This document shows, one piece after another, positions 9,875 through 31,020 of a stretch of DNA of 41,384 nucleotides. This DNA is from Myceligenerans pegani (GTDB taxonomy: Bacteria > Actinomycetota > Actinomycetes > Actinomycetales > Cellulomonadaceae): assembly GCF_014892515.1 (NCBI RefSeq), contig NZ_JADBGR010000059.1, positions 1-41,384 of the forward strand, written 5' to 3'. How positions within the stretch are numbered: the stretch's first letter is position 1; every line of letters starts with the position of its first letter. Below the pieces are notes generated by a model, which made no database searches, had not been told where the DNA came from, and saw only the letters and a list, made by a program, of their open reading frames with translations. The position numbers and the translations under genes are program-made.

Positions 9875-10996
<1,122 letters not shown>

Positions 10997-11521
10997 TCAG
11001 GCGGACCGCACCACGCGCTCCAGCGCGCGGTCGGTGATGGATCGGGGGCCCCGGCCGATGGCGAGGGTCCCGGACTTGACGATCTCGCGGACCCCGTACG
11101 GTTCCAGCGCCGCGAGCAGGGCGTTCAGCTTGGCGCCGGTTCCGGTCGCCTCGATCACCACGGCGTCGGGCGTCACGTCGACGACGTGCGCCCGGAACAG
11201 CTCGACCACCTCGAGCACGCCGGAGCGCGCGGCGGCGTCGGCCCGCACCTTGACGAGCAGCAGCTCGCGCTGGACGGACGACTCCGGGTCGAGCTCCACG
11301 ATCTTGATGACGTGCACGAGCTTGTTGAGCTGCTTCGTCACCTGCTCGAGGGGGTGCTCCTCCACGTCCACCACGACGGTGATGCGGGAGATCTCCTCGT
11401 GCTCCGTGGGTCCCACGGCGAGGGAGTGGATGTTGAACGCGCGCCGGGCGAACAGCCCGGCGACGCGCGTCAGGACGCCGGGCTTGTTCTCCACCAGGAC
11501 GGAAAGGGTGTGACGGCTCAT
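10997..11521 (-). CDS. ilvN: Acetolactate synthase small (regulatory) subunit
   Basis: 174 residues, usual length. It starts with the ACT-domain motif LSVLVENKPGVLTRVAGLF, then FNIHSLAVGPTE, and the second regulatory half with RELLLVKVRA and VIEATGTGAKLNALL. It activates the catalytic subunit and confers valine feedback inhibition. The start is the ATG beginning MSRHTLSVL; the purine-rich GAGGAAGAGAAG precedes it. The gap to the ilvB stop is 23 nt, so the two are co-transcribed. Confidence 0.97.
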   Translation of the reverse strand: MSRHTLSVLVENKPGVLTRVAGLFARRAFNIHSLAVGPTEHEEISRITVVVDVEEHPLEQVTKQLNKLVHVIKIVELDPESSVQRELLLVKVRADAAARSGVLEVVELFRAHVVDVTPDAVVIEATGTGAKLNALLAALEPYGVREIVKSGTLAIGRGPRSITDRALERVVRSA

Positions 11522-13386: not shown

Positions 13387-13440
13387 GTCGGTCTCCTGCC
13401 GTCGCACCCTGCGTCGGGGTGCCTGCGGATGTGTTCGGAC

Positions 13441-13645: not shown

Positions 13646-14404
13646 TCAGCGGAGTTCCCGGCGCCGGAACGCGAGCAGGCCGACCGTCGTCACGACCGCC
13701 ACGGCGCCGAGGAGGAACAGGCCGCTCAGCCACCAGGGCCCGACCGATGTGCCCGCGTCGCTCGCCGCCGGCCCCGCGACCCACGCGCGGGCGTGCGCCA
13801 GCGGCGACCACCGCTCGGCGGCCAGCCCTGCGAGGATCACCTCGAGGCCGAGCAGCGCCACGGGCACCACCGACACCGCCGCCCACCAGCGCCCGACAGC
13901 CGCGCCGACGGCGGCCCCGGCGACCGCCGCGCACCCCGCGAGCACCAGGACTCGCGCCCCGGACCACGCCAGCGCGGGGAGCAGCCCGGCGGCGTCCGTC
14001 GTCGTCCCCGGATCGTCCGCGGGACCGGCGACGAGGGCGACGCCCCACAGACCGGACGCGAGGAGCAGGTAGGCGGCCGCGACGCCGGGGAGCACGGCGA
14101 GTGCGGCGGCCACGGCCCGCAGGCGGTACACGCGGTCGCGGCGGGGCTCGACCGTGAGGAGCGCCCGGGTTCCCCCGTTCGGTCCCGCCGCCAGGAGGGC
14201 CCCTGCCACGCACGCGAACAGGACGGGGACGAGGGCGTATCCGGCGAGCTCGCCGTCGGTGACGGTGCGGGCGAGGCCGCCGCCGTCGCTCGTGAACGCA
14301 GCCAGGACGACCACCGTGACGACGTACACCAGCATGCCCGCCGCCACCCACCGAGCGGCCGGGCGGACGGCGAACCGCTGCAGTTCCTTGGCCACCAGGC
14401 GCAT
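13646..14404 (-). CDS. ABC-2-type transporter permease
   Basis: 252 residues with about six hydrophobic helices (for example VAAGMLVYVVTVVVLAAF near residue 20, LVPVLFACVAGALLAAG near 58, and LSGLFLLGAVAVVTTVGLLAF at the end) and a C-terminal basic FRRRELR tail typical of ABC-2 permeases. Its ATG follows the stop of the ATPase gene with no gap (TAGATG), so the two form a transporter pair. The substrate is unknown. It is the last gene before the ilvB promoter, which lies just beyond its stop; no clear terminator hairpin was found between them. Confidence 0.8.
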   Translation of the reverse strand: MRLVAKELQRFAVRPAARWVAAGMLVYVVTVVVLAAFTSDGGGLARTVTDGELAGYALVPVLFACVAGALLAAGPNGGTRALLTVEPRRDRVYRLRAVAAALAVLPGVAAAYLLLASGLWGVALVAGPADDPGTTTDAAGLLPALAWSGARVLVLAGCAAVAGAAVGAAVGRWWAAVSVVPVALLGLEVILAGLAAERWSPLAHARAWVAGPAASDAGTSVGPWWLSGLFLLGAVAVVTTVGLLAFRRRELR

Positions 14405-15649
14405 CTACGCGGTCTCCTCGGTGTCGTCGTTGCTGCGGCTGCCGGGCGACGGTTCCGGGGTTCCGTCCCGCTTGCCGGGGCCGCCCTGTGCGGGCTTCCG
14501 GCGGCCGTCGCGCGTGGCCTCCTTCTCGGCCGCGGCACGTTCACGGGCGGCGACCCGGGCGGCGTAGGCGGCCTGCTTCTCCGCGACCCTGGCCTCGAAC
14601 GCCTCGCGGCGCCTCTGGCGCCACGAAGGCCGCGCAGCCCTCCGCCTCGCCTCCTGGCGCGCGGCCCGCCGTTCCGCACGCGACGGAGCGGCGGGCGTCG
14701 GCTCGGGCTCCGGAGCGAGCCGCCGCACGAGCGACTCCAGGGACTCCCGGCGTGTACTCATCTCCGTGACGTACAGCTTCTTGCGGGCGAGAGCCCGGGT
14801 CACACCGGCCGGCTCGGCGACGCCGTCGACCACCACCGCGTCGCCGTCACGGCGTACGTGGAACCCGGCGGCCTTCAGCTCGGCGACGGCGCGATCGCCG
14901 TCGTCCACCCGCAGTCGGACGGCGGTCGCGAGGTCCCCGATCACGTCGGCCGCGGGTCCGTCGCCGACCACCCGACCGCCGGCCAGGACGGTGACCGTGT
15001 CGGCGAGTTGCTGGGCCTCGACGAGTTCGTCGGTGGTCATGAGGACCGTCGTGCCGCGGCCCGCGATCCTGCGCAGGAGCGTGCGGACCTCACGGGCGCC
15101 GGTGGGGTCGAGGCCGCGGGTCGGGTCGTCGACGATCAGCAGGTCCGGGCCTGACAGGAGGGCCGCGGCGAGCGCGAGCCGTCGTCGGTCACCGAGCGAG
15201 TACGAACCGACGGCGTCCGCCGCGGCGTCGGCGAGCCCGGTCTGCCGGAGGGCGAGATCGACCTGTTCCCGGCCCGTCGCGGCGGGGTGCATCAGGAGGT
15301 TGCGGCGTCCGGTCAGCCGGTCGAGGAATCCCGGATCGCCGACGAGGGCGCCGACGCGCCCGGCCAGCTCGCGCCCGACGTCCGGCATCGCGACGCCCAG
15401 CAGCCGCGCGGCCCCCGCGTCCGCGCGGGCCAGTCCGAGGAGGAGACGCAGCACGGTCGACTTCCCCGCCTTGGCGGGGCCGAGCAGCGCGTGCACGCCA
15501 CGGGCGGGCACCAGGAGGTCGAGGCCGTCGACGGCGATCGTCCGGCCGCGGACGCCGGCGTAGGTCTTCCGCAGGCCGAGCGTCTCGACGGCGACGGCCG
15601 CGGCTGCCTGCGGGTGATCGGCCCGGTTCACCCGGACAGGGTAGGGCAT
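14405..15649 (-). CDS. Degenerate ABC transporter ATP-binding protein with basic C-terminal tail
   Basis: 414 residues. The ABC fold is clear but several catalytic positions deviate. Walker A is GPAKAGKST (57-65, normally GPNGAGKST). The signature is YSLGDRRRL. Walker B is LIVDDP, with Asp175 where the catalytic Glu is usual. The switch His is replaced by Asp207 in VLMTTDEL. After the nucleotide domain come an alpha/beta regulatory region (about 230-310) and a roughly 100-residue Arg/Ala/Glu-rich tail likely to be helical or disordered. Either a slow ATPase or one that works by nucleotide binding is possible. It is paired with the downstream permease. ATP binding is likely; efficient hydrolysis is doubtful. 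Confidence 0.82.
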   Translation of the reverse strand: MPYPVRVNRADHPQAAAAVAVETLGLRKTYAGVRGRTIAVDGLDLLVPARGVHALLGPAKAGKSTVLRLLLGLARADAGAARLLGVAMPDVGRELAGRVGALVGDPGFLDRLTGRRNLLMHPAATGREQVDLALRQTGLADAAADAVGSYSLGDRRRLALAAALLSGPDLLIVDDPTRGLDPTGAREVRTLLRRIAGRGTTVLMTTDELVEAQQLADTVTVLAGGRVVGDGPAADVIGDLATAVRLRVDDGDRAVAELKAAGFHVRRDGDAVVVDGVAEPAGVTRALARKKLYVTEMSTRRESLESLVRRLAPEPEPTPAAPSRAERRAARQEARRRAARPSWRQRRREAFEARVAEKQAAYAARVAARERAAAEKEATRDGRRKPAQGGPGKRDGTPEPSPGSRSNDDTEETA

Positions 15650-15723: not shown

Positions 15724-16713
15724 TCACCAGAATCCCGCGCCGAGGATCGAGGTGGCGGGCGGGTCGACGCCGAGTCGGTCGCGCAGCACCGTGAGGTCGT
15801 AGGTGCGCTCCATCGCGAGGTGGCTCAGCGCGTACCGGGACAGTCTCGGCTCCGTGCCGGCCAGCTTCGCGAGCCGCTCGGCGACCACCGCGGCCCGCCG
15901 TGCCGCGCGCTCGGGCACGGGGACGACGCGCACGTGCCTGCCGCGCGCGAGCATGAGCAGTTCCAGGATCTCGCGCAGCACGACCGGTTCGGCGTCGGCG
16001 ACGTTGGCGACCAGCGGCGTGCCTGCGGCGATCTCAGGCGACAGGTCCGCCGCGAGGGCCGCGCGGACGGCCGCGGCGAGCGTGGCGACGTGCGTGAGGT
16101 GGTGCAGTGTCGTTCCCCCGCCGGGCAGCGGCAGCCAGCGGCCCGCGACCAGCGCCGCCTCGAGCCGCGGCAGCAGCGTCGTGTCCCCCGGCCCGTACAC
16201 GGCGTGCGGGCGCAGGACGACGACGGGGCCGTGGTCGGGCTCGGCCGCGTCGAGGGCGAGCCAGTGCTCGGCCGCGGCCTTGGTGGCGCCGTAGGAGTTG
16301 AGGTAGCGGAAGGGTCGGCGGCCCCGGTCCGCCGTCGGGCCCTCGTCCTCGCGCACACGGACACTCGGCGTCGCCGGGTCGTACACGCTCCCCGACGAGA
16401 CGTGCACGAACCGCGCCTTGGCGAATGTCGTGCGCACGGCACGCGTGCCCTCGACGTTCACCACCCAGGCCGCGGCCCGGGAGCCGCCGTCGCCCACGGC
16501 CGCGGCGCAGTGCACGACGGCATCGACGTCGCCCGGATGCGCGCGCCCGTCGAGGGGGCCGTCGCGCACGTCCCAGGACAGGTGGCGAGCGGCGCCGGGC
16601 AGTTCCGCGGGGACTCGCCGCGAGCACGCGAGCACCTCGTGCCCGTGCGCGGCAAGGTCCCGTACGACGGCGCCTCCGACGAAACCGGACGCCCCGGTCA
16701 CCGCCACCCGCAT
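15724..16713 (-). CDS. NAD(P)-dependent epimerase/dehydratase (OleD-like SDR)
   Basis: 329 residues. Extended short-chain dehydrogenase: nucleotide motif VTGASGFVGGAVV (5-17), VVHCAAAVGD, VHVSSGSVYD and the catalytic YGATK, then VVLRPHAVYGPGD. OleD enzymes of this family reduce the 2-alkyl-3-keto acid made by OleA to the hydroxy acid. That assignment here depends on the OleC-like and OleA-like genes nearby; sugar epimerase or 3-beta-HSD-like activity is the alternative. The ATG is supported by GAGGGA about 5 nt upstream. It lies downstream of the AMP-ligase gene in the same direction, across a repeat-rich spacer of 295 nt. Confidence 0.75.
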   Translation of the reverse strand: MRVAVTGASGFVGGAVVRDLAAHGHEVLACSRRVPAELPGAARHLSWDVRDGPLDGRAHPGDVDAVVHCAAAVGDGGSRAAAWVVNVEGTRAVRTTFAKARFVHVSSGSVYDPATPSVRVREDEGPTADRGRRPFRYLNSYGATKAAAEHWLALDAAEPDHGPVVVLRPHAVYGPGDTTLLPRLEAALVAGRWLPLPGGGTTLHHLTHVATLAAAVRAALAADLSPEIAAGTPLVANVADAEPVVLREILELLMLARGRHVRVVPVPERAARRAAVVAERLAKLAGTEPRLSRYALSHLAMERTYDLTVLRDRLGVDPPATSILGAGFW

Positions 16714-16786
16714 GCATTCCCTCGCCTTCTCCGGCCGCATGGTCCTCGGCCGGGAGATCCCTTCCACCGGTTCCACGACGGTTCCT

Positions 16787-16834
16787 GGCCGTGTGTTCGG
16801 CCGTGTGTTCGGCCGTGTGTTCGGCCGTGTGGCC
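16787..16834. repeat. 12-nt tandem repeat (GGCCGTGTGTTC, four units)
   Basis: Three exact copies of a 12-nt unit and a fourth altered one (GGCCGTGTGGCC), in the spacer between the OleD-like and OleC-like genes. It has no coding frame I can support. Confidence 0.9.
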
Positions 16835-16934
16835 CTGGCCGTACGTTCTTCGACGCCCACCCGGCCGCATGGCCCCGACCGCAGATCCGACAGACCGAAC
16901 CGTACCGGTCGAATGTGTACGGACCCCGGCTTCC

Positions 16935-17004
16935 GAGCGGACTTCTGCGAGCGGACTTCTGCGGGCGGACTTCTGCGGGCGGACGTCTGCGAGCGGACTT
17001 CTCG
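16935..17004. repeat. 14-nt tandem repeat (GAGCGGACTTCTGC, five units)
   Basis: Five consecutive 14-nt units with single-base differences, ending just inside the 3' limit of the spacer before the AMP-ligase stop. The units have no spacers, so this is not a CRISPR array. The rest of the spacer 16714-17008 shows nothing else I can call. Confidence 0.9.
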
Positions 17005-17008
17005 CCCC

Positions 17009-19024
17009 TCAGGTCCGTGCGGACTCCCGCACGAGCGACGCGGCCGCGGCGGCGAGGGCTGACCGGTCCGGCTTGCGGGACCGGCCCGCCAGTGGCACGA
17101 ACGGCGCCTCGACCACCAGGTCGGGCAGGGCCCCGTGGTCCAGGACCCCGAGCAGGCGGGGCCCGACCGCACGGGCGAGGGCGGTGTTCTCGGTGAGCGT
17201 CACGGCGGTGCGTGTCATGTCGGTGCGCGTCGCGTCGATGCGCGTCGCGTCGGTGCGCGTCGCGTCGGTGCGCGTCGCGTCGGCCGGCGACGACGGCACG
17301 TCCCGCCCGCGAGCGTCGCCGGACCTGACGTGATCACGATCCGCCACGAGGACGAGAACCACCCGCTCATCGCCGTCGTCCATCGGGACACCGACCATCA
17401 GCGCGTCGCCGACGCCCGGCAATGCCCGGACACGCGGTTCGAACAGGCCCGGATAGATGTTCACCGTGCCGCGGATGATCATGTCGCGGGTACGGCCGAC
17501 GAGCATGAGCCGGCCGAGGTCGTCGACCCGCGCGAGGTCACCCGTTCGATGCTCGACGGCGGCGGGCCGGCCGGCGTCGAGGTCGGCGAGGTAGCCGGCC
17601 ATGAGGGACGGGCCCGAGATCACGAGTTCGCCGACGCCGTCGTCGTCCGGGGCGTCGATGCGGGCCGTGACGCCGTCGAGCGGGGTACCGACAAGATCAC
17701 CGGCGGGTGGTGCGGGCACGGGCGAGACGACGGCCGACGACACGGCGGCCGACGGCGACACAGCCGACGACTCGCGCGACGACCGGACGGCGGCGGCCTT
17801 GTCGGCACCGTCGACGACGGCGACGGGAAGCATCTCCGTGGCCCCGTACACACAGATCCAGTGCGTCTCGGGCAGCACGCGGACCGCCCGCTCCATCAGC
17901 GCGGGAGTCACCGGTGCAGCCCCGACAGCCATCACCCGCGGCCCCGTCGGCGCCCGGCCCGCGCCGCCGGATTCGGCCGCGATTCCCGCCTGGTCGTCGC
18001 ACGCACGCCGTGCCCACCCGTCCGAGCGTGCTGCACGACCAGCTCGGCGGACCGTGCGCGCACCGCGGTGACCCTTCTCGATCACGTCGAGGAGTGCCGT
18101 GACGTCCGCGGGGACCGCGAACGACGTGTCCGCACCCGCCACTCCCCTGGCGAACGCGGCCGGGTCGGCAGCGGGTGTCCGCGCCGGGATCTCCCAGGTA
18201 CCGCCCGCCAGGAGCGCGGGCAGACCGAGGAACATCTGGTCGGTGTGCGCACGCTGCCCGGGTCGCGGGTCCCCGACCTGAGCGAACAACGCGAGCATCC
18301 CGCCGAGGGACGAGGTGGTGTGCACGACGGCCCGTGGGTCCGACGTGGTGCCCGACGTGAACACCACAAGCGCCTCACGCTCCCCCGGGGCGTTCTTCTC
18401 CTCGACCCGCTCGTCCGCCGGACGCCCGTCCGGCGAACCATCGCCTGCCACAGCGCCGTCCGCCGCCGGTTGCCGGCCGAGCGCCAGCCTCGCCACTCGC
18501 CGGGCCCCGCGCGGGACACCGGGAAGCCAGGTTCCCGAGTACAGGTGCCGGACGGGGAGACGGGCGTAGTCCGGCAGGAGCAGCCCGCGGGCCCTCGCGA
18601 GACGGGCGAGCGGACCCGACGACGCCACGTACAGCAGAGCCTCGGTCGCCGCCCAGCGTGGTCGGGCGGCCGCGAGGCGCGCCTCGAAGAGCTCGGGCGT
18701 CGACCCCGGGTCGACGAACACGATCGAGCCGCCCGCATGAATCACCGCGAGGCAGAGAACGACGCCCTCGGGACGCGGCCGGATGCTGAACAGCACGCGC
18801 TCACCGACCCGCATGCCGGCTGCCCGGAGGCCGGTGGCGGTGCCCTCGACGCGGTCCGCGAGTGCCGCGAACGTGACCTCCTCGCGGACGCGACATCCGC
18901 GACGGGCGCCACGCGCTCCTGGAAAGGCGTCACCGAACCAGCGCAGCGCGACCTCGTCGCGATCGATCCCGCCGTCGGCCACCGATGTCAGCAGTTCGTC
19001 GACGAACGTCTTCCCCGTACTCAC
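17009..19024 (-). CDS. Fatty acid-AMP ligase/synthetase (OleC-like)
   Basis: 671 residues. ANL-superfamily motifs in order: VFVDPGSTPELFEARLAA near 102 (reminiscent of OleC), the ATP loop FTSGTTSDPRAVVH at 222-235, ICVYGATEM, the hinge motifs RTGDLARVDDLGRLMLVGR and DMIIRG, and the C-terminal Lys in RSRKPDR near 650. Such enzymes adenylate a carboxylate; OleC converts a beta-hydroxy acid to a beta-lactone. A DATRT pentapeptide is repeated five times (about 585-610) between the small C-terminal domain's strands, coded by a 15-nt tandem repeat. The GTG start lies 8 nt downstream of a promoter, suggesting a leaderless message. AMP ligase is near certain; OleC specificity is an inference. Confidence 0.8.
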   Translation of the reverse strand: MSTGKTFVDELLTSVADGGIDRDEVALRWFGDAFPGARGARRGCRVREEVTFAALADRVEGTATGLRAAGMRVGERVLFSIRPRPEGVVLCLAVIHAGGSIVFVDPGSTPELFEARLAAARPRWAATEALLYVASSGPLARLARARGLLLPDYARLPVRHLYSGTWLPGVPRGARRVARLALGRQPAADGAVAGDGSPDGRPADERVEEKNAPGEREALVVFTSGTTSDPRAVVHTTSSLGGMLALFAQVGDPRPGQRAHTDQMFLGLPALLAGGTWEIPARTPAADPAAFARGVAGADTSFAVPADVTALLDVIEKGHRGARTVRRAGRAARSDGWARRACDDQAGIAAESGGAGRAPTGPRVMAVGAAPVTPALMERAVRVLPETHWICVYGATEMLPVAVVDGADKAAAVRSSRESSAVSPSAAVSSAVVSPVPAPPAGDLVGTPLDGVTARIDAPDDDGVGELVISGPSLMAGYLADLDAGRPAAVEHRTGDLARVDDLGRLMLVGRTRDMIIRGTVNIYPGLFEPRVRALPGVGDALMVGVPMDDGDERVVLVLVADRDHVRSGDARGRDVPSSPADATRTDATRTDATRIDATRTDMTRTAVTLTENTALARAVGPRLLGVLDHGALPDLVVEAPFVPLAGRSRKPDRSALAAAAASLVRESART
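17206..17280. repeat. 15-nt in-frame tandem repeat in the AMP-ligase gene
   Basis: Five units of CGGTGCGCGTCGCGT with a few substitutions, read on the minus strand as DATRT, DATRT, DATRI, DATRT and DMTRT. The unit is a multiple of three, so copy-number change would keep the frame. Confidence 0.9.
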
Positions 19025-19032
19025 GAGAGCCG

Positions 19033-19061
19033 AACGTAACCGAGCATCGATGACACGTCAC
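19033..19061 (-). promoter_or_regulatory. Promoter of the OleC-like gene
   Basis: -35 GTGACG (19056-19061), a 17-nt spacer and -10 TACGTT (19033-19038), with the GTG start 8 nt downstream and no ribosome site. It is nearly identical in layout to the ilvB leader promoter. Confidence 0.6.
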
Positions 19062-19181
19062 CCCTGCTCCGGTTCTCTGCGAGGCGGTTGCGTGTCGGTG
19101 TGTGCATCTAGCGTCTCCTTCGGACGGCCACGTGTCGTCGTCTCGAGCCCATGGGATCACTGTCACGGTCGATGCGGCAAG

Positions 19182-19190
19182 TTATCCACA
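19182..19190 (+). other. DnaA-box-like sequence TTATCCACA
   Basis: A perfect 9-nt match to the classical DnaA box in the AT-richer stretch 19160-19260 before the HNH gene. Only one copy was seen, so an origin is not claimed; the remainder of 19062-19276 holds the upstream region of the HNH gene. Confidence 0.4.
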
Positions 19191-19276
19191 GATTCTCGTT
19201 TCTGATAGCGATAGTGACGTACTGAACATAGGATCGAACACAACGACGAGCGACCAAACGGAAGGGGGTGCGACCG

Positions 19277-21523
19277 ATGGCCGGTTCGATGTTCGACGAC
19301 GGCGCCGGGCGCGCTCCCTCCGTGGGCATACCGCCCGGCGAGGTGGAGTGGGTCGGCCCGACCGGCGCGATCGACTATCGGTGCGCCGAGGAGTTCGGCC
19401 GCGGGTTCGATGACTGCGGGTCGGACGACGCGGACGTGGTGGACGAGTTCGGGCGGCCCGTGCCGGCGCCGGATCACACGGAACGGGAACTGGCCGCGAT
19501 TCTGGCGACCGACCCGTATGCCGACCGGGATGTGGAAGCCTCCAGGTCGGAGGTCGCGGGCACGGCGGGCTGCCCGCACGGTGGTGTGGGCGCCGCTGGA
19601 GGCACGGACCGTGGCACCGGTGGTGGCGTGTCGTCGGAGGCTGGTGGCAGAGACGTCGTCGTCGATGTCTCAAGGCTGCTGCTGGAGGACGTGGATCGCC
19701 TGTCCCCGGGGGTGGCGCTGGCGGGTGTCCTGAGGGACCTGGCCGGCTTGGAACCGCCGTTCGGCGCCCGCAGGGAGCGTGGCGCCGTGGACGGCGCCTC
19801 TGCGGATCGTGCCGACGCGGACCGTATCGGCGTGGACGATGCGTCCGGGCGTGCGTCGGAGAGCTTGGAGAGTCTCGCCGATGACGAGTTGCGCAGCGTG
19901 ATCGCCGGCTGGGAGCGAGTGGCCTCCTGGGTGCGTGCCGCTCAGGCGCGGGTGGCGGCGGAGCTGATGGCTCGCACCGACGGCCCGTTGGGACGGGACT
20001 CGGCCGCCGGTGAGATCGCGGCCGAGCTGCACGTCACCACGCCCGAAGGCTGGCAGATCGCCATGCGCGGCGAGGGAACCGCGATGTATCCGCGGTTGGG
20101 TGAGTCGCTGGCCGCCGGGCGGATCGATACGCGCAAGGCGGACACGTTCCTGCGCGCCGGCACCGACCTGACCCCCGAGGAACGCGGCGAGGCCATCGAT
20201 GATCTGCTGCCCGGTGCACGCACGCGCACGTGGCGGTGGGTCAGCGAACAGATGAACGCCCGCGCCGCCGATCTGCACGGCAGGAAGGCGCGCCGACGGG
20301 AGATCATCGAGCGGTGCAACGTGTGGGCCGAACAGGCCGGCCCGGGCATGGGCCGCCTGATCGCCGACCTGCCCGTGGTGGACGCGGCTCGTACGTTCAA
20401 CACCGTCCAGGCCGCGGCCAAAGCCCTCAAGGACACCTCCGGCGAGACCCGCCCCCTGGGCGCCCTGCGTGCCGCCGCGCTCGCCGCGCTGATCACCGGC
20501 GACCTCGTCCTGCCCTGCCCCGACAGCACCAACACCACCGGCACCGGCACCGGCACCGGCATTGACGAGGCCGGCGACGGCAACCGCGGCATCGACCACC
20601 ACAACGCCGACCACCACAACGCCGGTTCCGCCGGTCACGGCGCCACCACCGGCCGTGGTGGTGAGCTCGGTCGTGGTGATGAGGTGGTAGGAGAGCCGCC
20701 GCGGCTGGTCGAGCCGGTGCTGGACACCGACCTGATCCCGATCCCCGACGACCCGCACGGTATCGTCCTGACCGGCCCCGCACACGGCGCTACCGGCAGC
20801 GCGCCCACCAGCAACAACACCGGCAACCAGGACGCGAGCGCTGCGGAGTCCGGCAGCCACACGCGGCTCCGCGTGGTGGACGTGTCCACCACGGTAAACG
20901 TCACCGTGCCCGCCACCATGCTGCTGGATCCCGAGGACACGACACCCGGAATCCTGGAGGGCATCGGTCCGATACCGGCCGACTCGGCCGCACGCATCGC
21001 CGCGGACGCCACCTGGCGACGTCTGCTGACCGACCCGGTCACCGGCGTCCTGACCGACTACTCGGCCCGCACCTACACCCCCGGCAGCATCCTGCGCGCC
21101 GCCGTCACGGCCCGTGACCACACCTGCCGGTTCCCCGGCTGCCACCGACCCGCCACCACCGGCGGCCGGGCCGCCCTCGACCTGGACCACATCCGGCCTT
21201 TCGACCACGACCATCGGTACCAGCCCGGCGAACCCGGCCAGACCCGCGCCACGAATCTCCATCCTCTATGTCGCAAACACCACAATCTGAAAACGCATGC
21301 GAACTGGCAGGTCACCCGTGACGCCGACACCGGGACCACCCGATGGACGCCACCCAGCGGCACACCCGCCGTCGTCGAGCCCGGTATCACCGACCCCACC
21401 ATCCGCTACGCCCTCGCACACGGCATGACGCTCGCCGCACCACCCACGACCACGGGGAGCGGGCCCGGCGAGGCGAAGGCCGGCCGGCCACGTGGACGCC
21501 ATCCGGAAACGCCACCGTTCTGA
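19277..21523 (+). CDS. HNH endonuclease with DUF222 domain (13E12-repeat-like family)
   Basis: 748 residues. The DUF222 region covers roughly residues 195-415 (LADDELRSVIAGWERVASWV, through GRIDTRKADTFLRAGTDLT). A Gly/Thr/Asn/His-rich low-complexity linker follows near 415-455, and a C-terminal HNH nuclease domain carries CRFPGCHRP, LDLDHIRPFDH and LHPLCRKHHNLKT. This is a multi-copy actinobacterial family related to the Mycobacterium 13E12 repeats; mobility is suspected but the role is not settled. The ATG at 19277 has GAAGGGGG 8 nt upstream. It runs opposite to both neighbours and separates the OleC/OleD genes from the OleA-like operon. Confidence 0.88.
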   Translation: MAGSMFDDGAGRAPSVGIPPGEVEWVGPTGAIDYRCAEEFGRGFDDCGSDDADVVDEFGRPVPAPDHTERELAAILATDPYADRDVEASRSEVAGTAGCPHGGVGAAGGTDRGTGGGVSSEAGGRDVVVDVSRLLLEDVDRLSPGVALAGVLRDLAGLEPPFGARRERGAVDGASADRADADRIGVDDASGRASESLESLADDELRSVIAGWERVASWVRAAQARVAAELMARTDGPLGRDSAAGEIAAELHVTTPEGWQIAMRGEGTAMYPRLGESLAAGRIDTRKADTFLRAGTDLTPEERGEAIDDLLPGARTRTWRWVSEQMNARAADLHGRKARRREIIERCNVWAEQAGPGMGRLIADLPVVDAARTFNTVQAAAKALKDTSGETRPLGALRAAALAALITGDLVLPCPDSTNTTGTGTGTGIDEAGDGNRGIDHHNADHHNAGSAGHGATTGRGGELGRGDEVVGEPPRLVEPVLDTDLIPIPDDPHGIVLTGPAHGATGSAPTSNNTGNQDASAAESGSHTRLRVVDVSTTVNVTVPATMLLDPEDTTPGILEGIGPIPADSAARIAADATWRRLLTDPVTGVLTDYSARTYTPGSILRAAVTARDHTCRFPGCHRPATTGGRAALDLDHIRPFDHDHRYQPGEPGQTRATNLHPLCRKHHNLKTHANWQVTRDADTGTTRWTPPSGTPAVVEPGITDPTIRYALAHGMTLAAPPTTTGSGPGEAKAGRPRGRHPETPPF

Positions 21524-21578
21524 CCCGGACGCGTGTGAGCACGTCCACCCTGTCCGGCAGGCCCGGAGGATTCGCCCT

Positions 21579-21595
21579 GTCCGACAAGGTCGGAC
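21579..21595. terminator. Hairpin between HNH gene and P450 gene
   Basis: 7-bp perfect stem GTCCGAC / GTCGGAC with an AAG loop in the 102-nt space between the converging stops. There is no T run. Confidence 0.45.
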
Positions 21596-21625
21596 CCGTC
21601 GGACGCCCCGCCACCGCACGGACCG

Positions 21626-22951
21626 TCACAACCCGACGATCCGCCCCTGGCCGTGCTCCACCGCCCGCCCCCGGCCGTGCCCTCCGTCGAGCGTGAGCTC
21701 CAGCCCCCGGTAGCCCGGCACGAGCACGCCGCGCGCAGGCCGGCGTCGTCCCACGACGACGCGACGGCCGGTCGCGGCGAGCGGCGTGAGCGCGTCCAGC
21801 ACAGCCTCCACCTGCGCCATCGCCAGCGGCATCCCCAGGCAGAAGTGCGGGCCGGCACCGAACCACAGGTGCCGCACGTCGGGGTCGACCGGCCGGTCCG
21901 GATCGAACGCGCCAGCGGCCCGGCAGCAGTTCACGGTCGCGATGACGACCCGGTCCCCGGCACTGACCCGCTCTCCGCCGACGACGGCGTCGGCCCGCAC
22001 GGACCGCAGCATCGCGGGCGTGGGCACGGTCACGCGCAGAGCCTCCTCGACGACACGGCGGCGCAGGTCGTCCCCGGAGACCTCGCTCCGAGAGCCCGCC
22101 TCCTCGACGCCGAGCAGCCTCCCCGTCCACCCCGTGTCGTAGGCGATCGCGAGCAGCCGCGGCACGAACGACTGCACCGTCTCCGTCCCGGTGAGCACGA
22201 ACGCCCCGACCGCGCCCATCGCCTCGCGCTCCGACAGGCCGAGCCCGCGCATCCGCCCGGGCACGGTCGACTCGTCGCCCGCGCGATACGCGTCACGTGC
22301 CGGTGCCGTCAGTTCCCCCAGCACCCGCCGCGCGTACGCCACCTGCGACGTCGTGAGCCGGCGCCGATGCAGGCGCACCATCCCGGTCACCACCTGCGCC
22401 GCCGCGATCGACGTCCGCACCGCCGCGTCCGTGGGTGGCAGCCCCACGAGCCCGCAGATCACGGACCCTGCCTGGGCGGCGACGACCCGGGCGAGGTCCA
22501 CGGTCTCACCCGCGTCGAGGCGCGCCACCATGGCGGCGAGCGGACTCGTGGCATCTGGGTCCCGCCCGGCCCGCTCCCGTCCTCGCCCTTCGACCAGTTC
22601 CCGCACCGCGCGCGGCGAGAAGATCGGCCCGAGCGCCCGGCGCAGCGCGGCGTGCTCCGCGCCCTCCATGTTCAGCAGCACGGACGGCCCCAGGATCGGG
22701 GTCCAGAGGTCCGACGGAGCCCCGGGGCCCACCTTCGAGAAGCGGCCGACGTCGAGAAGCACCTCGCGCGCGATCGCAGCGTCGTTCACCACCAGCCCGA
22801 CCCGCGGTATCCGCACGACAGGCCGGGACCGCAGCGCCCTCACCGCGGGATAGGCGACGGGATGTGCGGCGCGCTGGACGCGCTCCTCCCATCGAGCCTC
22901 GGCCGGGCGAGCCTCCGTCGCACGACCCTCACCGCGCCGCCCGCCCGTCAC
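21626..22951 (-). CDS. Cytochrome P450 (first of a related pair)
   Basis: 441 residues. Heme-binding loop FGAGPHFCLG with Cys near 371, the ExxR helix VVEEALRVTVPTP, and the I-helix LTGTETVQSF. No membrane anchor, as usual for bacterial P450s; it would need ferredoxin and reductase partners not seen in this window. The GTG start overlaps the glycosyltransferase stop by 4 nt (GTGA), so it is the third gene of an OleA-like/GT/P450 operon. It shares segments with the P450 at 25061, for example HLWFGAGPHFCLG against QLWFGAGRHLCLG, and VPGY near both ends. The substrate is unknown; a lipid made by the neighbouring enzymes is plausible. Confidence 0.9.
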   Translation of the reverse strand: MTGGRRGEGRATEARPAEARWEERVQRAAHPVAYPAVRALRSRPVVRIPRVGLVVNDAAIAREVLLDVGRFSKVGPGAPSDLWTPILGPSVLLNMEGAEHAALRRALGPIFSPRAVRELVEGRGRERAGRDPDATSPLAAMVARLDAGETVDLARVVAAQAGSVICGLVGLPPTDAAVRTSIAAAQVVTGMVRLHRRRLTTSQVAYARRVLGELTAPARDAYRAGDESTVPGRMRGLGLSEREAMGAVGAFVLTGTETVQSFVPRLLAIAYDTGWTGRLLGVEEAGSRSEVSGDDLRRRVVEEALRVTVPTPAMLRSVRADAVVGGERVSAGDRVVIATVNCCRAAGAFDPDRPVDPDVRHLWFGAGPHFCLGMPLAMAQVEAVLDALTPLAATGRRVVVGRRRPARGVLVPGYRGLELTLDGGHGRGRAVEHGQGRIVGL

Positions 22952-23712
22952 CGGATGTCCACCACCTCGGGCCGGTACCGATGGTCCGCGTACCAGCCCA
23001 GCGTCCGCACCACGCCCCAGGCGTGCACGCGCCGCGTGGAGGCCCGCACCCACACCTCCCGGTGCTCCCCGTACGCGGTCGTCAGCCGCCGGACCGCGTT
23101 GACCAGAGCCCGGTCCTCGTGCACGTCCTCGATCCGGGTACGCGGGAACCCGCCCGCCCGCTCGTACAGCTCCGCCGTGATCGCCATGTTGCAGCCGGGT
23201 GCCATCACGTAGGGCCCCAGGTATCCCTCGCCGCGGTTCCCGGGCCGCACCTTGCCGAACGCGGCGGCCAGCCACACGACGCCCGCCAGCACGGACTGCT
23301 GCACACGCGACACCGGCCGGTCGTCCGTCCGCGGCACGAGCCGCCCCGCGATCAGCTCGTCCCCCGTGCGGAACGCGTCCCGGACGGCCCGCGTCCATCC
23401 GGGCGGCGGCAGGCAGTCGGCGTCGGTACGGGCCAGCAGCTCCGCCCCGCCGGCGATCGCCACGCGCATGCCCGTGTCGGCCGCGGCACCCGTTCCCTTC
23501 TGCGGTTCGTGCACCACCCGCCACCGCCGCCCCCGCCCGAGCCGCGCGATCGTCTCGCCCGCCAGTTCCGCGGTCCCGTCCGTGGACCCGTTGTCCACGA
23601 CGACCAGGTTGAAGTCGTCGTCCTCCTGCGCGTGCAGCGCCTCGAGCGTGCGCACGATCCCGTGCTCGTGCGCCTCGTTCAACGCCGGGACGACGACGGC
23701 GAGCCGCACCAC
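22948..23712 (-). CDS. Family 2 glycosyltransferase
   Basis: 254 residues from the preferred start. GT-A fold motifs: VRLAVVVPALNEAHE at the N-terminus, LVVVDNGSTDGT, the DxD-type ARTDADCLPPPGW, GPYVMAPGCNMAITAELYERAG and IEDVHEDRAL as the acceptor/base region. It transfers a sugar from a nucleotide donor; acceptor and sugar are unknown. The GTG at 23712 has GGAGG 8 nt upstream. A longer reading from the GTG at 23787 would overlap the OleA-like stop by 4 nt and cannot be excluded. It is coupled to the following P450 gene by a GTGA overlap. Soluble or peripheral; no strong membrane helices. Confidence 0.85.
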   Translation of the reverse strand: MVRLAVVVPALNEAHEHGIVRTLEALHAQEDDDFNLVVVDNGSTDGTAELAGETIARLGRGRRWRVVHEPQKGTGAAADTGMRVAIAGGAELLARTDADCLPPPGWTRAVRDAFRTGDELIAGRLVPRTDDRPVSRVQQSVLAGVVWLAAAFGKVRPGNRGEGYLGPYVMAPGCNMAITAELYERAGGFPRTRIEDVHEDRALVNAVRRLTTAYGEHREVWVRASTRRVHAWGVVRTLGWYADHRYRPEVVDIR

Positions 23713-23783
23713 CCGGACGTCCTCCGGCGCCGCCCCCGCATCCCCGGACCGCCCTCCCGACCCGACACGGCCCCGATCCCCGC

Positions 23784-24956
23784 TCACCACCGCATCACCA
23801 TCGCCCCCATGCTGATCCCGCCGGCGAGGCCCACCAGCAGCGCCACGTCCCCACGCCGGAGTCGTCCGCTCCGCTCCGCCAGGCTGAGCTGGAGCGGCAG
23901 GCTCGCCGACGCCACGTTGCCGTGGTCGGAGATGGTCACGATCGTGCGTTCCCGGGGCACCCCCAGACTCCCGAACACGTCGTCCAGATAGGCGACAGCC
24001 ACCTGGTGCACCGCCACGAACGCGACGTCGTCCCACGTCACGTCCGCCTTCGCCATGGCTTCGACGACGACCTCGGGACCGAGCTCGTCGAACGCCTCCC
24101 GCAGCCGCGACCCGTCGATCTCGAAGTAGCTGCGCTCGGGATCACGTGGATTGAACGTCCCGCCGCCCGGCAGCATCCCGACGTCCCAGTGACGCGACGC
24201 CGCCGTGAAGGCCGAGGCCAGGATGCCCGACGGCGCCGCCCCCGCCAGGTCCGCGAGCTCCGCGTCGAGACCCGGCCCGCCCAAGTCCGGGCCGTCCAGG
24301 TCCGCCCCGCCGAGGCCCGCCCCGCCGAATCCTCCGGCGCCCCGCACCGCCTCGACAAGCACCGCCGCACCCGCGTCCGACATCGTGTACCCCGGCGCCG
24401 ACAGCGCGTACGTCGCCCGGTCGGGCACGTCCCAGCGCACGGCCCGGCTCGGCATCTCGCCGCACGCGATCAGCACCCGCTGGTACCGCCCCGTGCCGAT
24501 CAGCGCCTCGGCCACCTCGATACCGTTCAGCACCGAGTTGCAGGCGTTCTTCACGTCCATCACCGGGCACGACGCGCCCAGCTTCGCGGCCACGATGTGC
24601 GCGGTGGCGGGCTCGACCATGTCCTGCGACGCCGACGCGAAGATCAGCAGGTCGACGTCCGACGGCGTCAGCCCCGCCCCGCCGAGCACCGTCCGCGCGG
24701 CCACCACCGCCAGATCCGACGCCTGCTCGTCCTCGCCCGCGACGTGCACCGTCCGTGCCCCCGTCAGCCGGGAGACCATGGGAACCCGCGGCACCACCTT
24801 CGGGTTCCGGCGGTGCAGATCCCTCTCGACCTCGGCGACGTCCCGCGTCCCGGCAGGCAGATGGACGGCGACCCCCGCAATCCTGGCGACAGGCTGCGTC
24901 GGCTCCGGTACGACCGCGGTCGACGGCTCGACGGCGGCCCTGATTTCGATCGGCAC
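23784..24956 (-). CDS. OleA-like thiolase / 3-oxoacyl-ACP synthase III family
   Basis: 390 residues. Thiolase-fold catalytic set: Cys139 in DVKNACNSVLNGIEVA, His317 in VAVHQVAVAYLDD and Asn347 in SDHGNVASASLPLQL. The NAC...NGIEVA pattern and Glu115 in MVEPATAHIVAAKLG resemble OleA, which joins two fatty acyl-CoAs head to head, more than FabH. A Gly/Leu/Asp-rich insertion sits near 207-236. The GTG at 24956 is preferred because TACCGT stands 7 nt upstream and a longer reading to 25046 would almost reach the divergent P450. First gene of the operon with the GT and P450. The family is secure; the OleA assignment is probable. Confidence 0.83.
   Translation of the reverse strand: MPIEIRAAVEPSTAVVPEPTQPVARIAGVAVHLPAGTRDVAEVERDLHRRNPKVVPRVPMVSRLTGARTVHVAGEDEQASDLAVVAARTVLGGAGLTPSDVDLLIFASASQDMVEPATAHIVAAKLGASCPVMDVKNACNSVLNGIEVAEALIGTGRYQRVLIACGEMPSRAVRWDVPDRATYALSAPGYTMSDAGAAVLVEAVRGAGGFGGAGLGGADLDGPDLGGPGLDAELADLAGAAPSGILASAFTAASRHWDVGMLPGGGTFNPRDPERSYFEIDGSRLREAFDELGPEVVVEAMAKADVTWDDVAFVAVHQVAVAYLDDVFGSLGVPRERTIVTISDHGNVASASLPLQLSLAERSGRLRRGDVALLVGLAGGISMGAMVMRW
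24247..24350. repeat. Imperfect GC-rich repeats coding the Gly/Leu/Asp insertion of the OleA-like gene
   Basis: Near-repeats of a short unit resembling GCCGAGGCCCGCCCC, translating on the minus strand to GGAGL, GGADL, DGPDL and GGPGL. They form an insertion compared with ordinary thiolase-fold enzymes. Confidence 0.6.
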
Positions 24957-24963
24957 CTGGCAC

Positions 24964-24969
24964 ACGGTA
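24964..24969 (-). promoter_or_regulatory. Putative -10 of the OleA-like operon
   Basis: TACCGT lies 7 nt before the GTG start at 24956 with no ribosome site. The divergent space 24957-25060 also has to hold the promoter of the P450 at 25061, for which I see only a weak CACACT. Confidence 0.4.
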
Positions 24970-25060
24970 GCGACCCTGACGGACACCCCCCGCAAAAGTC
25001 CGCCGCACGCGTCCGCCAGGATTTCGTCACGAAGGAACGGCGGCACGGCACACTCTCCTC

Positions 25061-26377
25061 ATGACTCCGCTGCCCACCACCCGGCACGAGCTGGGACTGC
25101 TCTGGCGAGCCCGTCCGGCGATGGCCGGGCTGCTGCTCGCCGGACAAGGCCTCGCACGTCTGCCCGGACCCGCGATCCGCAGGGTCCCCGGTATCGGCTG
25201 GGTGACCGGTGACCCCGTCGTCGCGCGCGTCGTCCTCAAGGACCACCGCTCCTTCACGATGGTGGGTGAGGGCGGCGTCGGCGACCTCTGGGCACAGATC
25301 CTCGGCGAGTGGGTACGCGATCTGTTCGACGGTCCCGGCCACCACGACCTGCGCACGCGCGCCCGCGACCTGTTCACCGAGAGGTCAGCCGCCGCCCTGG
25401 TGGCGGAGACGTGGGGACCGGTCCTGAGCGACGTCCGCGCGCGGCTGTCCACCGGCGAGCCCGTCGACGTCGCCCACACCGCACGCGTGCTCGTGGGCCG
25501 CATGATGATCGAGCTCCTGGGCATCCCGGCGCCCGACGACGCCGGAAACCGCACCGGCCCCGGCACCGGCACCAACAAGGACCCCGCGTGGCCCGACGAC
25601 GCCGGGGCGCTCGCCGCCTTCCGCACCGGCGAGCGGCTCGCGAGGCTCGCCCTGGGCACGGCCGCGTCCACCACGCTCTCCCCCGCCGCGATCGCCGAGG
25701 CGAAGCTCATCACCGACGAGCTGACCGCCGGCGTCCCGCGCGCCTTCCGCACCGCGCCGCCCGACCGGCTCCTCGGGCGCGCCCGGGAGCTCGGGCTGGA
25801 CCTCGAGGAGACCACCGGCCTGGCCAGCCTGCTCATGGTCGCCGGGACGGAGACGTCCGCGAGCGCCATGATGCGCACGACGGCGCTCCTGATCGACACC
25901 GGCGAACAGCACCGCCTGCTCGCCGGACTGAACGACCACGACCACCAGAACGACCGCACGTCCGCACCCACGGGGCGACCGCCGTCGGACACCGACCCGT
26001 GGGAACCGGTGGTCCGCGAGGGGCTGCGCGTGACGAGCCCCGCCTCGGTCATCGGGCGCGGCGTCTCCCGCGACGTCGAGATCGGCGGCGCCCGCCTCCG
26101 CGCGGGGGAACGGATCATGCTGCTGGTCTGGTCGGCGAACGCGGCGGCGGGTCCGTTCCGCGCGGACCGGGAGTACGTCCGGGAGACCCGCCAGCTCTGG
26201 TTCGGCGCGGGCCGCCATCTCTGCCTCGGCGCGGCGCTCGCCCGTGCGGAGATCTCCGCGCTGCTGCGGGTGCTGTGGCCCGCGGAGGGCGCCGTCCCGC
26301 TCCGCGTGGTCCGGCGTCGTGCCGCGCGGCGGGTGGTCGTGCCGGGTTACGAGGAGCTGGTGGTCGCGCGTTCGTAG
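25061..26377 (+). CDS. Cytochrome P450 (second of a related pair)
   Basis: 438 residues. Heme loop FGAGRHLCLG with Cys near 388, I-helix VAGTETSASAM, and the ExxR motif VVREGLRVTSPAS, in which the residue after Glu is Gly. There is a Gly/Thr/Asn-rich insertion near 165-175 and a polar stretch before the ExxR helix. It is divergent from the OleA-like gene and related in sequence to the P450 at 21626, so the two probably arose by duplication and may act on successive positions of one product. The last 31 nt overlap the convergent ABC ATPase gene. No redox partner genes are visible. Confidence 0.9.
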   Translation: MTPLPTTRHELGLLWRARPAMAGLLLAGQGLARLPGPAIRRVPGIGWVTGDPVVARVVLKDHRSFTMVGEGGVGDLWAQILGEWVRDLFDGPGHHDLRTRARDLFTERSAAALVAETWGPVLSDVRARLSTGEPVDVAHTARVLVGRMMIELLGIPAPDDAGNRTGPGTGTNKDPAWPDDAGALAAFRTGERLARLALGTAASTTLSPAAIAEAKLITDELTAGVPRAFRTAPPDRLLGRARELGLDLEETTGLASLLMVAGTETSASAMMRTTALLIDTGEQHRLLAGLNDHDHQNDRTSAPTGRPPSDTDPWEPVVREGLRVTSPASVIGRGVSRDVEIGGARLRAGERIMLLVWSANAAAGPFRADREYVRETRQLWFGAGRHLCLGAALARAEISALLRVLWPAEGAVPLRVVRRRAARRVVVPGYEELVVARS

Positions 26378-27399
26378 ATCCGGCGCACCACGTCCTCGAT
26401 GGCCGGCTCGGCGATCGTCAGGTCCAGCACGTCGGCCTGCTCGGAGACGGCGGCGAGCACGCGGGCGGCGGTCGTCGTGGCGGGGTCGAACGCGAGGTGC
26501 TGCCGCAGGCCGCCGCCCTCGCTGCGCAGGTGGCGCGCATCGGGCACGGCCAGTTCGGCGCGCGGTTCGGCGAGGTCCACGATCAGCACGCGCTCCGCCC
26601 CGACGGTCCGCCCGAGCCCGTCGAGGCTCCCGTCGTAGGCGAGCCGCCCGTGGTCGACGACGAGGATCCGGTCGCACAGCCGCTCGACGTCGCCCATGTC
26701 GTGCGTGGTGAGCAGCAGGGTCGTGCCGTGCTCCGCCCGTTCGCGGACCAGGAACTCGCGCAGCCGCTGCTTGGACAGCACGTCGAGCCCGATCGTCGGC
26801 TCGTCGAGGACGAGGAGCTCCGGCCGGTGCAGCAGCGCGGCCGCGACCTCGGCGCGCATCCGCTGCCCGAGTGACAGCTGCCGCACGGGTGTACCGAGGT
26901 AGTCGCCCATGTCGAGGGTCTCGACGAGCTCGTCCGTGCGGGTCCGCTCCTGCGCGCGGGACAGGGAGTGGATCGCCGCGAGGATGCCGAAGGACTCCCG
27001 CACGGGCAGGTCCCACCACAGTTGCGACCGCTGCCCGAAGACGACCCCGATCCGCCGCGCGAGCTTCTTGCGGTCCTTGACCGGCCGCAGCCCGCAGGTG
27101 AGCACCTCGCCGGCGGTCGGCACGAGGATTCCGGCGAGCATCTTGATCGTGGTGGACTTCCCGGCGCCGTTGGCGCCGATGTATCCGACCGCCTCGCCCG
27201 CCGCGATGCTCCAGCTCATGTCGTCGACGGCGGTCAGCCGCCGCACCTTCAGCCCGTCCCGCACCCGGAAGTCGCGGCTCAGTCCGCGCACCTCCACGAT
27301 CGTGTCCGACGACGGCGTCCGGCCGTCCGCCGGCACCCTGGCCGTCGCCCGTGGCCGGGCCGTGCCCGGGCCCGCCGTCTCCGGCGTCGTCCTGCTCAC
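26347..27399 (-). CDS. ABC transporter ATP-binding protein (DUF990-type exporter)
   Basis: 350 residues. Intact motifs: Walker A GANGAGKSTTIKMLAG near 75-90, a Q-loop region VVFGQRSQLWWDLP, signature LSLGQRMRAEVAAAL, Walker B LLVLDEPTIGLD and switch His in LLLTTHDM. The RSQLWWDLP segment is typical of ATPases that go with DUF990/ABC2_membrane_6 permeases, two of which lie immediately upstream. The GTG start overlaps the permease stop by 4 nt. An N-terminal 30-residue Pro/Thr/Arg-rich extension precedes the domain. An export role is likely; the substrate is unknown. Confidence 0.92.
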   Translation of the reverse strand: MSRTTPETAGPGTARPRATARVPADGRTPSSDTIVEVRGLSRDFRVRDGLKVRRLTAVDDMSWSIAAGEAVGYIGANGAGKSTTIKMLAGILVPTAGEVLTCGLRPVKDRKKLARRIGVVFGQRSQLWWDLPVRESFGILAAIHSLSRAQERTRTDELVETLDMGDYLGTPVRQLSLGQRMRAEVAAALLHRPELLVLDEPTIGLDVLSKQRLREFLVRERAEHGTTLLLTTHDMGDVERLCDRILVVDHGRLAYDGSLDGLGRTVGAERVLIVDLAEPRAELAVPDARHLRSEGGGLRQHLAFDPATTTAARVLAAVSEQADVLDLTIAEPAIEDVVRRIYERATTSSS

Positions 27400-28202
27400 C
27401 CTCCACCTCCCTGGTAGTGCCGTACACCCGCCCGCCACGCGAGCAGTGCGAGGATCCACGCCCACAGCGCCGCCACGGGTGCGAACCACCCGAGCCACGC
27501 GGGCAGCCAGTCCGCGCCGGGCTCGCCGAGCAGCAGCATCGCGGGCAGGTAGGCGCAGAACGCCATGGGGAACACGAACCCGAAGATCACCGTGATGCCG
27601 CGCACCCACACGGTGGCGGGCTGCGTGGACGCGTGCCGCCCGCCGTACACGAACGCGTTGGTCACTTGTTCCGCGTTGAGCAGGAAGAACTGCAGTCCGC
27701 CCGCCGCGACGAAGTTGGCGCAGAAGATCGCGAACCCGCACACGAGCGCCAGGGCCAGCAACGCCACGGCGCGCGGGCCCCAGTCGATGTCGTTCGCGGC
27801 GAGCGCCCAGATCAGCACGACGACGGCGAGCGCCGTGCGTCCCAGACGCCGCAGGCTGATGTCGCTGGTCACGAGCTGCGCGAGCAGCGGCTGCGGCCGC
27901 AGGTACAGGACGTCGACGGTCCCGGCCCGGACCTGCTGCGCGAGGCTGTCGACGTGCCCGAACATCATGTCGGCGTTCGAGAACGCGAGTTCGGCGAGGC
28001 CGAACACGAGGAGCGCCTGCATCAGGTCGAGGCCGCCCAGGGTGCCGTTCGCGGCCGAGAAGAGCACGATCACCTCGGCCATCTCCGTCAGCCCGACGAG
28101 CGCGGTGCCGAACAGGTCGGCCCGGAAGCTCGTGCGGTAGGCGCGTTGCGCGCGGATCCGCGACGCGAGCACGGCGCGATAGGGCCGCAGGAGGTCACCC
28201 AC
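27396..28202 (-). CDS. ABC-2 permease of DUF990 family (second subunit)
   Basis: 268 residues with about six membrane helices. Features of the family: LRPYRAVLASRIRAQRAYRTSF at the N-terminus before the first helix (residues 4-25), YLRPQPLLAQLVTSD near 97, and a FANFVAAGGLQFFLL-like helix pair in the middle. It forms a heterodimeric membrane channel with the product of the upstream gene. The start overlaps that gene's end by 8 nt, and the stop overlaps the ATPase start, so the three genes are tightly coupled. Confidence 0.88.
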   Translation of the reverse strand: MGDLLRPYRAVLASRIRAQRAYRTSFRADLFGTALVGLTEMAEVIVLFSAANGTLGGLDLMQALLVFGLAELAFSNADMMFGHVDSLAQQVRAGTVDVLYLRPQPLLAQLVTSDISLRRLGRTALAVVVLIWALAANDIDWGPRAVALLALALVCGFAIFCANFVAAGGLQFFLLNAEQVTNAFVYGGRHASTQPATVWVRGITVIFGFVFPMAFCAYLPAMLLLGEPGADWLPAWLGWFAPVAALWAWILALLAWRAGVRHYQGGGG

Positions 28203-28989
28203 CCTGCACCTCCAGCTTCCGCCGCCCGAGCCGGGTCGCCACCTGGCCCGCCGCGAGGGCGAGAGCCAGCCACCCCGCCTGCGCGGCGATCAGCCACAGC
28301 GCGTCGGCGCCGGTGGTCCGGCCGCTGAGCACGTCGATCGGGTACATCATCACGGCGGGGAACGGCGTGGCGAGAGCGATCACCTTCAGCCAGTCCGGGA
28401 ACAGCCAGACGGGGGTCATGAGGCCGGTCAGCAGGCCGGACACGCCCATGTAGAGCACCTGCAGCCCGCGGATCTCGACGAGCCAGAACCCGGCGGTGCC
28501 CAGGAGGTAGGCCAGGGAGTGCGAGAGCGCGATCCCCAGCAGCAGGCTCACCGCGCCGAGCACGTACGGCAGCACCTGGGCCGGCATGGCCATGCCCACC
28601 ACGAGCACGCCCACGCCCACGCTCGGGAGACCGCGCGGGATCAGCGCGAACACGCCACGGCCGACGTCGTCGGCGATGCCGGCGAGCTGCACGTCCACGG
28701 GTCGCAGGAAGTCCACGGCGATGGCACCGGACTTGATGCGCTCCGCCGAGCCGGGCAGGGACCAGATGTTCACCGAGCCGAGCAGGCCCTGGCTCAGCCA
28801 GACGTAGGCCGCCATCGTCCCGGCGGTGTAGCCGGCGATCTCGCCCCCGCCGTCGTCGACGAGGGTCAGCAGGATCCCGGACTTGAGCAGCCCGAACGTG
28901 GCGTTGGCGAGCAGTCCGGCGAAGGCGGCGGGGAGGTAGCGGCTCTGGGTGCGGAAGCCGGCGGCGAGGATCCGGGCGTAGACGCGCAC
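28195..28989 (-). CDS. ABC-2 permease of DUF990 family (first subunit)
   Basis: 264 residues, about six helices. Seen: AAFRTQSRYLPAAF-type N-terminus, a central DFLRPVDVQLAGIADDVGR loop typical of DUF990, and the final LALAAGQVATRLGRRKLEVQGG with its basic end. It is the first gene of a three-gene ABC exporter operon. The GTG at 28989 lies 9 nt after TAGGGT, which with TTGCCC makes a plausible promoter. It is oriented like ilvD, whose terminator hairpin lies just upstream. Confidence 0.88.
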   Translation of the reverse strand: MRVYARILAAGFRTQSRYLPAAFAGLLANATFGLLKSGILLTLVDDGGGEIAGYTAGTMAAYVWLSQGLLGSVNIWSLPGSAERIKSGAIAVDFLRPVDVQLAGIADDVGRGVFALIPRGLPSVGVGVLVVGMAMPAQVLPYVLGAVSLLLGIALSHSLAYLLGTAGFWLVEIRGLQVLYMGVSGLLTGLMTPVWLFPDWLKVIALATPFPAVMMYPIDVLSGRTTGADALWLIAAQAGWLALALAAGQVATRLGRRKLEVQGG

Positions 28990-30984: not shown

Positions 30985-30990
30985 GCGGGC

Positions 30991-31020
30991 ACGATAGTCC
31001 CGCTGTCCGGCAGCTGACAC
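30991..31020 (-). promoter_or_regulatory. ilvD promoter
   Basis: -35 GTGTCA (31015-31020), 18-nt spacer and -10 TATCGT (30991-30996), ending 6 nt before the ilvD ATG. Confidence 0.55.

Follow-up and report, generated by a model that had tools for sequence, protein, structure and literature searches.

According to the accessible text of Smith et al. 2020 (PMC7064751), the lipstatin and nocardiolactone clusters of beta-lactone-making actinobacteria carry oleA, oleC and oleD without oleB. The same text describes a cluster in Actinoplanes atraurantiacus with OleA, a glycosyltransferase, OleC, a cytochrome P450 and OleD, again without oleB; its OleA was assayed and found active, and its product was predicted to be a hydroxylated, glycosylated beta-lactone. 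PMC7064751 also suggests that many pathways beginning with OleA have products that are not yet known. Here we analyzed a comparable set of genes in Myceligenerans pegani, on a 41,384-nucleotide stretch (the window) that is a complete contig (contig 47) of a 111-contig, 5.87-Mb genome. On the minus strand, genes for an OleA-like thiolase, a family 2 glycosyltransferase (GT2), a cytochrome P450 (P450 a), an OleC-like AMP ligase and an OleD-like short-chain dehydrogenase/reductase (SDR) follow in that order, bounded by ilvD and ilvB. We read them, with little better than even confidence, as an oleACD-type lipid pathway that lacks OleB and has GT2 and P450 tailoring genes. A preliminary description of the window had taken the combination with P450 and glycosyltransferase genes to be undescribed. 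As far as the accessible text goes, it is already in print, with the same inferred product, from one genome known to us. What this analysis adds is how widely the combination occurs, the fixed places that it takes in genomes, evidence on the ancestry of its OleA and OleC, and the lack of oleB in the genome.

Lineage of the core enzymes

The five core genes, spanning 9.2 kb from the SDR through the thiolase, are as follows.

23784-24956, minus strand: oleA-like thiolase of the beta-ketoacyl-ACP synthase III (KAS III) type, first of the run (Pfam ACP_syn_III; tree; OleA-type glutamate)
22948-23706, minus strand: GT2, core (PF00535, 4.7e-20; 82 of 82 loci)
21626-22951, minus strand: P450 a, core (PF00067, 7.4e-11; 80 of 82 loci)
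17009-19024, minus strand: oleC-like AMP ligase of the ANL family, core (PF00501, 3.7e-36; trees with canonical OleC)
15724-16713, minus strand: oleD-like SDR, core (NCBIfam NF042422 OleD, 9.5e-32, under cut-off)

The SDR, ligase, thiolase and second P450 (P450 b) genes are open frames with third-position G+C bias. Their Pfam and NCBIfam families agreed with the preliminary description, which had placed an SDR, an AMP ligase, a thiolase, a GT2 and two P450s in this span.

To place the thiolase, a tree of 74 KAS III rows was built, with 29 of 35 extracted cassette rows; L058, whose frame ran on, was omitted. The cassette formed a single clade (100/99) that grouped with canonical OleA (99/95), apart from FabH. 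The program gave a long-branch warning, and removal of the far outgroups leaves three groups, in which a sister pair cannot be read. A glutamate that the accessible text of Smith et al. 2020 (PMC7064751) gives as unique to OleA homologues was carried by every cassette row (29 of 29) and every canonical OleA row (8 of 8), by 0 of 16 FabH rows and by 3 of 21 other KAS III rows. Two of those three come from oleABCD clusters; the remaining one, L226, branched on the OleA side. Glu115-Pro116 of the window thiolase corresponds to the position of X. campestris Glu117 and was invariant in 34 aligned rows. The catalytic residues Cys139, His317 and Asn347 were present in all 29 cassette rows; they are shared with FabH and are not diagnostic.

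The preliminary description had called the thiolase OleA-like and had named a placement with FabH as the contrary outcome. We considered that the enzyme might be a KAS III of polyketide or fatty acid synthesis, either FabH-like or acting on the starter unit, with the ligase, P450s and GT2 serving another natural product. FabH was the best-scoring family (164 bits to NCBIfam beta-ketoacyl-ACP synthase III, compared with 134 bits to the family that a canonical OleA matches) and supplied the closest solved structures by sequence, and a fold search with the thiolase model (pLDDT 88.5) matched FabH and OleA alike. Although family scores and solved structures favor FabH, a FabH origin was rejected on the tree and the glutamate. 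The genome also has a separate FabH (L009), which grouped with the FabH rows and not with the cassette, and no carrier protein or polyketide synthase gene was matched in the window frames scanned. This alternative appears improbable, and the evidence supports assignment of the thiolase as a putative OleA-type enzyme. Elsewhere, at about 9234-11199 of locus L239 (genome G187), L226 adjoins a second KAS III gene, possibly a nocardiolactone-type pair.

The preliminary description had also proposed an OleC-like ligase and had named a grouping with ordinary FadD enzymes as the contrary outcome. Two trees placed the enzyme with canonical OleC and not with ordinary acyl-CoA ligases. Support was 99/96 in an ANL tree that set 24 cassette rows against seven ligases from the same genome, and SH-aLRT 95 in a quick ANL tree that set 16 cassette rows against 21 actinobacterial acyl-CoA ligases and six of the genome's own. 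L242 and L250, two other NF006754 matches, were also on the OleC side. The ligase retains the usual motifs and the C-terminal lysine region.

With the same OleA entry, the ligase might instead supply the thiolase as a plain ligase that makes acyl-CoA or acyl-AMP; the product would then be a long-chain ketone, alcohol or 3-hydroxy acid that is hydroxylated and glycosylated but has no beta-lactone. Compared by eye, its A8 region (RDMIIRGTVNIYP) resembles that of an ordinary acyl-CoA ligase and is unlike that of canonical OleC (SHIVTAPGGVVTP). Its match to the OleC model was weak, at 73 bits compared with 291 bits for canonical actinobacterial OleC, and it evolves much faster than GT2: against the nearest relative, its identity is 72% and that of GT2 is 95%. 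The score is below the 900-bit cut-off of NCBIfam NF045786 (OleC), as is the 291 bits of an oleBC-encoded OleC of the same order; because the order's canonical OleC and OleD both fall short of their cut-offs, these thresholds are uninformative for actinobacteria. Both ligase trees speak against a plain ligase. So does the retention of SDR and ligase together in most loci, as would be expected if both work on what OleA makes, within a single pathway. We regard the plain-ligase pathway as possible but rather unlikely, and the trees support a predicted ligase that is OleC-related rather than an ordinary acyl-CoA ligase.

The best NCBIfam family of the SDR was OleD (NF042422; 110.6 bits, cut-off 580), and identity to canonical OleD loci was 35-38%. 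The earlier designation as OleD-like is supported by best family, suggesting a candidate OleD, whereas its phylogenetic placement is poorly supported.

Pfam scans of 32 window frames, a selection of the possible frames that probably includes a few that are not genes, detected no alpha/beta-hydrolase family, in keeping with the earlier statement that no OleB is visible in the window. The preliminary description had raised the case of an oleB elsewhere in the genome. Across the whole genome (G000), the best match to an OleB query was only 3.6e-16 over 117 residues; the same search of 12 genomes gave four clear positives, from 5.2e-94 to 1.1e-116. A pathway to long-chain olefins that relies on a distant oleB would fit the commonness of canonical oleBC-type genes in the order, where OleC-type matches (E <= 1e-40) were found in 69 of 149 genomes, with up to eight candidates per genome scored. 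Of the four positives, G021 and G087 carry the cassette as well, showing that cassette and oleB can share one genome. However, an OleB-class match was absent from the window's genome and from seven others among the ten cassette genomes searched, and where oleB was found it lay in a separate oleBC-length frame; in G021, an oleA-oleBC-oleD locus was read. The window's genome had no OleC-type match at E <= 1e-40 among the 8 of its 21 candidates that were scored. An olefin product is, in our view, very improbable.

Conservation and genomic seats

The neighborhood comparison that the preliminary description had suggested was carried out on 82 loci. Of 162 confirmed relatives the best 80 were used, every one under an actinobacterial record title, and two more distant loci were added; some of the 82 end at contig ends. 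OleA and GT2 were present in all 82, P450 a in 80, the ligase in 78, the SDR in 74 and P450 b in 45. The five-gene core is an old cassette, widely shared in actinobacteria. The two P450s are related, as had been stated (33% identity over 378 columns), and P450 a belongs to the core; the pair as such does not, P450 b being accessory. The two most divergent loci matched canonical OleA, OleC and OleD directly, at 30%, 29% and 37% identity, and thereby bridge the gap between the cassette and canonical sequences.

OleA relatives (E <= 1e-30; up to 12 candidates per genome scored) were found in 47 of 150 genomes of the family and in 10 of its 25 genera. Neighborhoods were read in 20 of these 47 genomes: OleA, GT2, P450 a and the ligase were present in all 20, the SDR in 18 and P450 b in 15. 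Both ilvD and ilvB flanked the cassette inside the stretch in 14 of the 20. In a sample of the phylum (E <= 1e-60), at least 3 of 396 genomes, the window's own included, had a match, a lower bound because five candidates per genome were scored.

Against the Myceligenerans relative G054, dN/dS was 0.09 for GT2, 0.13 for the SDR, 0.18 for P450 a, 0.20 for OleA, 0.28 for the ligase and 0.29 for P450 b. The five core genes and P450 b are under purifying selection in this comparison with one relative. Together with the core order kept in relatives, this argues that the cluster is more than a chance arrangement.

A second seat was seen in ten Arthrobacter and Paenarthrobacter loci, where secY is found on one side of the cassette (10 of 10; adk in 9 of 10) and an M24 gene of methionine-aminopeptidase type on the other (10 of 10). 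This Arthrobacter-type seat is in the ribosomal protein region (L105, L116, L118, L120, L122, L124, L125, L132, L133 and L137). A second dihydroxy-acid dehydratase gene beside the cassette in Cellulosimicrobium-type genomes raised the idea of self-resistance, in which the product would inhibit this enzyme and the extra copy would be a resistant form of it. The idea was rejected: that type of ilvD (E <= 1e-180) occurs in 136 of 150 family genomes, most of them without a cassette match, and in the window's genome it is on a different contig. Two loci had irregular features. L077, from Promicromonospora kroppenstedtii, looks rearranged, in that P450 a was matched twice and the ligase not at all; a deletion or an assembly fault may lie behind this. 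L079, titled Sphaerisporangium cinnabarinum, carries the cassette beside ilvD and ilvB as in the family genome G105, and its species label is doubtful.

Neighboring genes and a proposed pathway

The other features around the run are listed below.

29122-31080, minus strand: ilvD, housekeeping flank (NF009103, 1102 bits)
28195-28989, minus strand: ABC-2 permease (PF06182, 2.7e-16)
27396-28202, minus strand: ABC-2 permease (PF06182, 2.6e-38)
26347-27336, minus strand: ATPase in the second ABC transporter set, which has three genes (PF00005, 7.2e-28, from a longer frame)
25061-26377, plus strand: P450 b, accessory, divergent from oleA (PF00067, 1.9e-10; 45 of 82 loci)
19268-21523, plus strand: HNH-like gene separating the ligase from P450 a (Pfam HNH match weak, E 0.16, under cut-off)
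14405-15649, minus strand: ABC transporter ATPase (PF00005; 19 of 82 loci)
13646-14404, minus strand: probable ABC permease partner, an adjacent hydrophobic frame with no Pfam family (12 of 82 loci)
11545-13407, minus strand: ilvB-like acetolactate synthase large subunit, housekeeping flank (TPP enzyme domains)

The HNH-like gene that splits the run, the ilvD and ilvB flanks and the two ABC transporter gene sets had not appeared in the preliminary description. The HNH-like gene, which we take to be kin to 13E12-type genes, gave tblastn matches in three of the 20 family stretches, each from Myceligenerans, and was present in 2 of 82 loci, both Myceligenerans. It is an insert confined to Myceligenerans among the loci examined and stands outside the pathway. 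In-frame 15-bp tandem repeats were seen at window positions 17190-17283, in the ligase gene, where low-complexity repeats keep the frame, and at 24266-24328, in an insert of the thiolase. The gap between ligase and SDR (16787-17002) has 12- and 14-bp repeats. A complete rRNA operon (16S, 23S, 5S; 35763-41224, minus strand) lies at the contig end beside gatCAB.

Judging by homology and conserved residues, the OleA-like thiolase would join two acyl-CoAs in a non-decarboxylative Claisen condensation to give a 2-alkyl-3-oxoalkanoate. The SDR would reduce the keto group, yielding a 2-alkyl-3-hydroxyalkanoate, and the OleC-like ligase would adenylate this hydroxy acid and close the beta-lactone. With no OleB, the lactone would not be decarboxylated to an olefin. 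One or both P450s may hydroxylate an acyl chain and GT2 may add a sugar to the hydroxyl, in either order. The neighboring ABC genes might, as a guess from their position, export the product. Solved P450 structures gave weak matches only and pointed to no substrate. The GT2 model (pLDDT 88.2) matched GT-A-type fucosyl-, mannosyl- and other transferases in the PDB at 12-23% identity, and this fold search suggested no acceptor. Both the lactone and its sugar, as well as any role of the product, are inferred.

Several points weigh against this oleACD-type proposal. Besides the long-branch warning, family scores and structural matches of the thiolase, and the A8 region and low OleC score of the ligase, they include the SDR tree, in which the cassette clade had support of 36/0. 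GT2 enzymes often use polysaccharides or phospholipids as acceptors, so the lipid acceptor assigned here is a guess. Neither an isolated product nor a survey of this cassette type was recognized in the literature searched, which lay outside subscription papers, and the accessible part of PMC7158056 has no mention of Promicromonospora, Cellulosimicrobium or P450.

More speculatively, the cassette might make a class of actinobacterial lipids, namely P450-hydroxylated, GT2-glycosylated long-chain beta-lactones with a constitutive role in the cell envelope, in soil and marine bacteria from Arthrobacter to Streptomyces. Such a role would be unrelated to olefins and to lipstatin-type inhibitors. The stable seats in housekeeping operons (ilvD-ilvB and secY-adk-map) would favor a constitutive envelope lipid over an occasional antibiotic, but we hold this broader suggestion to be doubtful.

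Comparison with described clusters

Beta-lactones are reactive, drug-relevant lipids. A cluster type known to us in print from one genome proves here to be conserved, as a cassette, across at least 80 named records from actinobacteria. Cultured carriers include Promicromonospora, Cellulosimicrobium, Arthrobacter and Streptomyces rimosus, and the product is therefore open to direct search by gene deletion and mass spectrometry.

Canonical oleABCD and oleA-oleBC-oleD clusters of Micrococcales have OleA, OleC and OleD homologous to those of the cassette. In contrast to them, the cassette has no OleB and has GT2 and P450 added; its OleA is about 25-28% identical to theirs over long matches, and its ligase and SDR form separate clades. 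The window cassette is like the lipstatin and nocardiolactone clusters, as these appear in the accessible source, in being actinobacterial and in having oleACD without oleB. We know of no GT2 and P450 set in either of those clusters. With the A. atraurantiacus cluster, compared by its published gene list and not by sequence, the window shares OleA, a glycosyltransferase, OleC, a P450, OleD and the lack of OleB. It differs from that list in its order of GT2, then P450, then ligase, and in its second P450, ABC genes, HNH-like insert and ilv seat. Two cassette loci (L145 and L146) have their genes in the order listed for A. atraurantiacus, and these genes fall in the same clade as those of the window.

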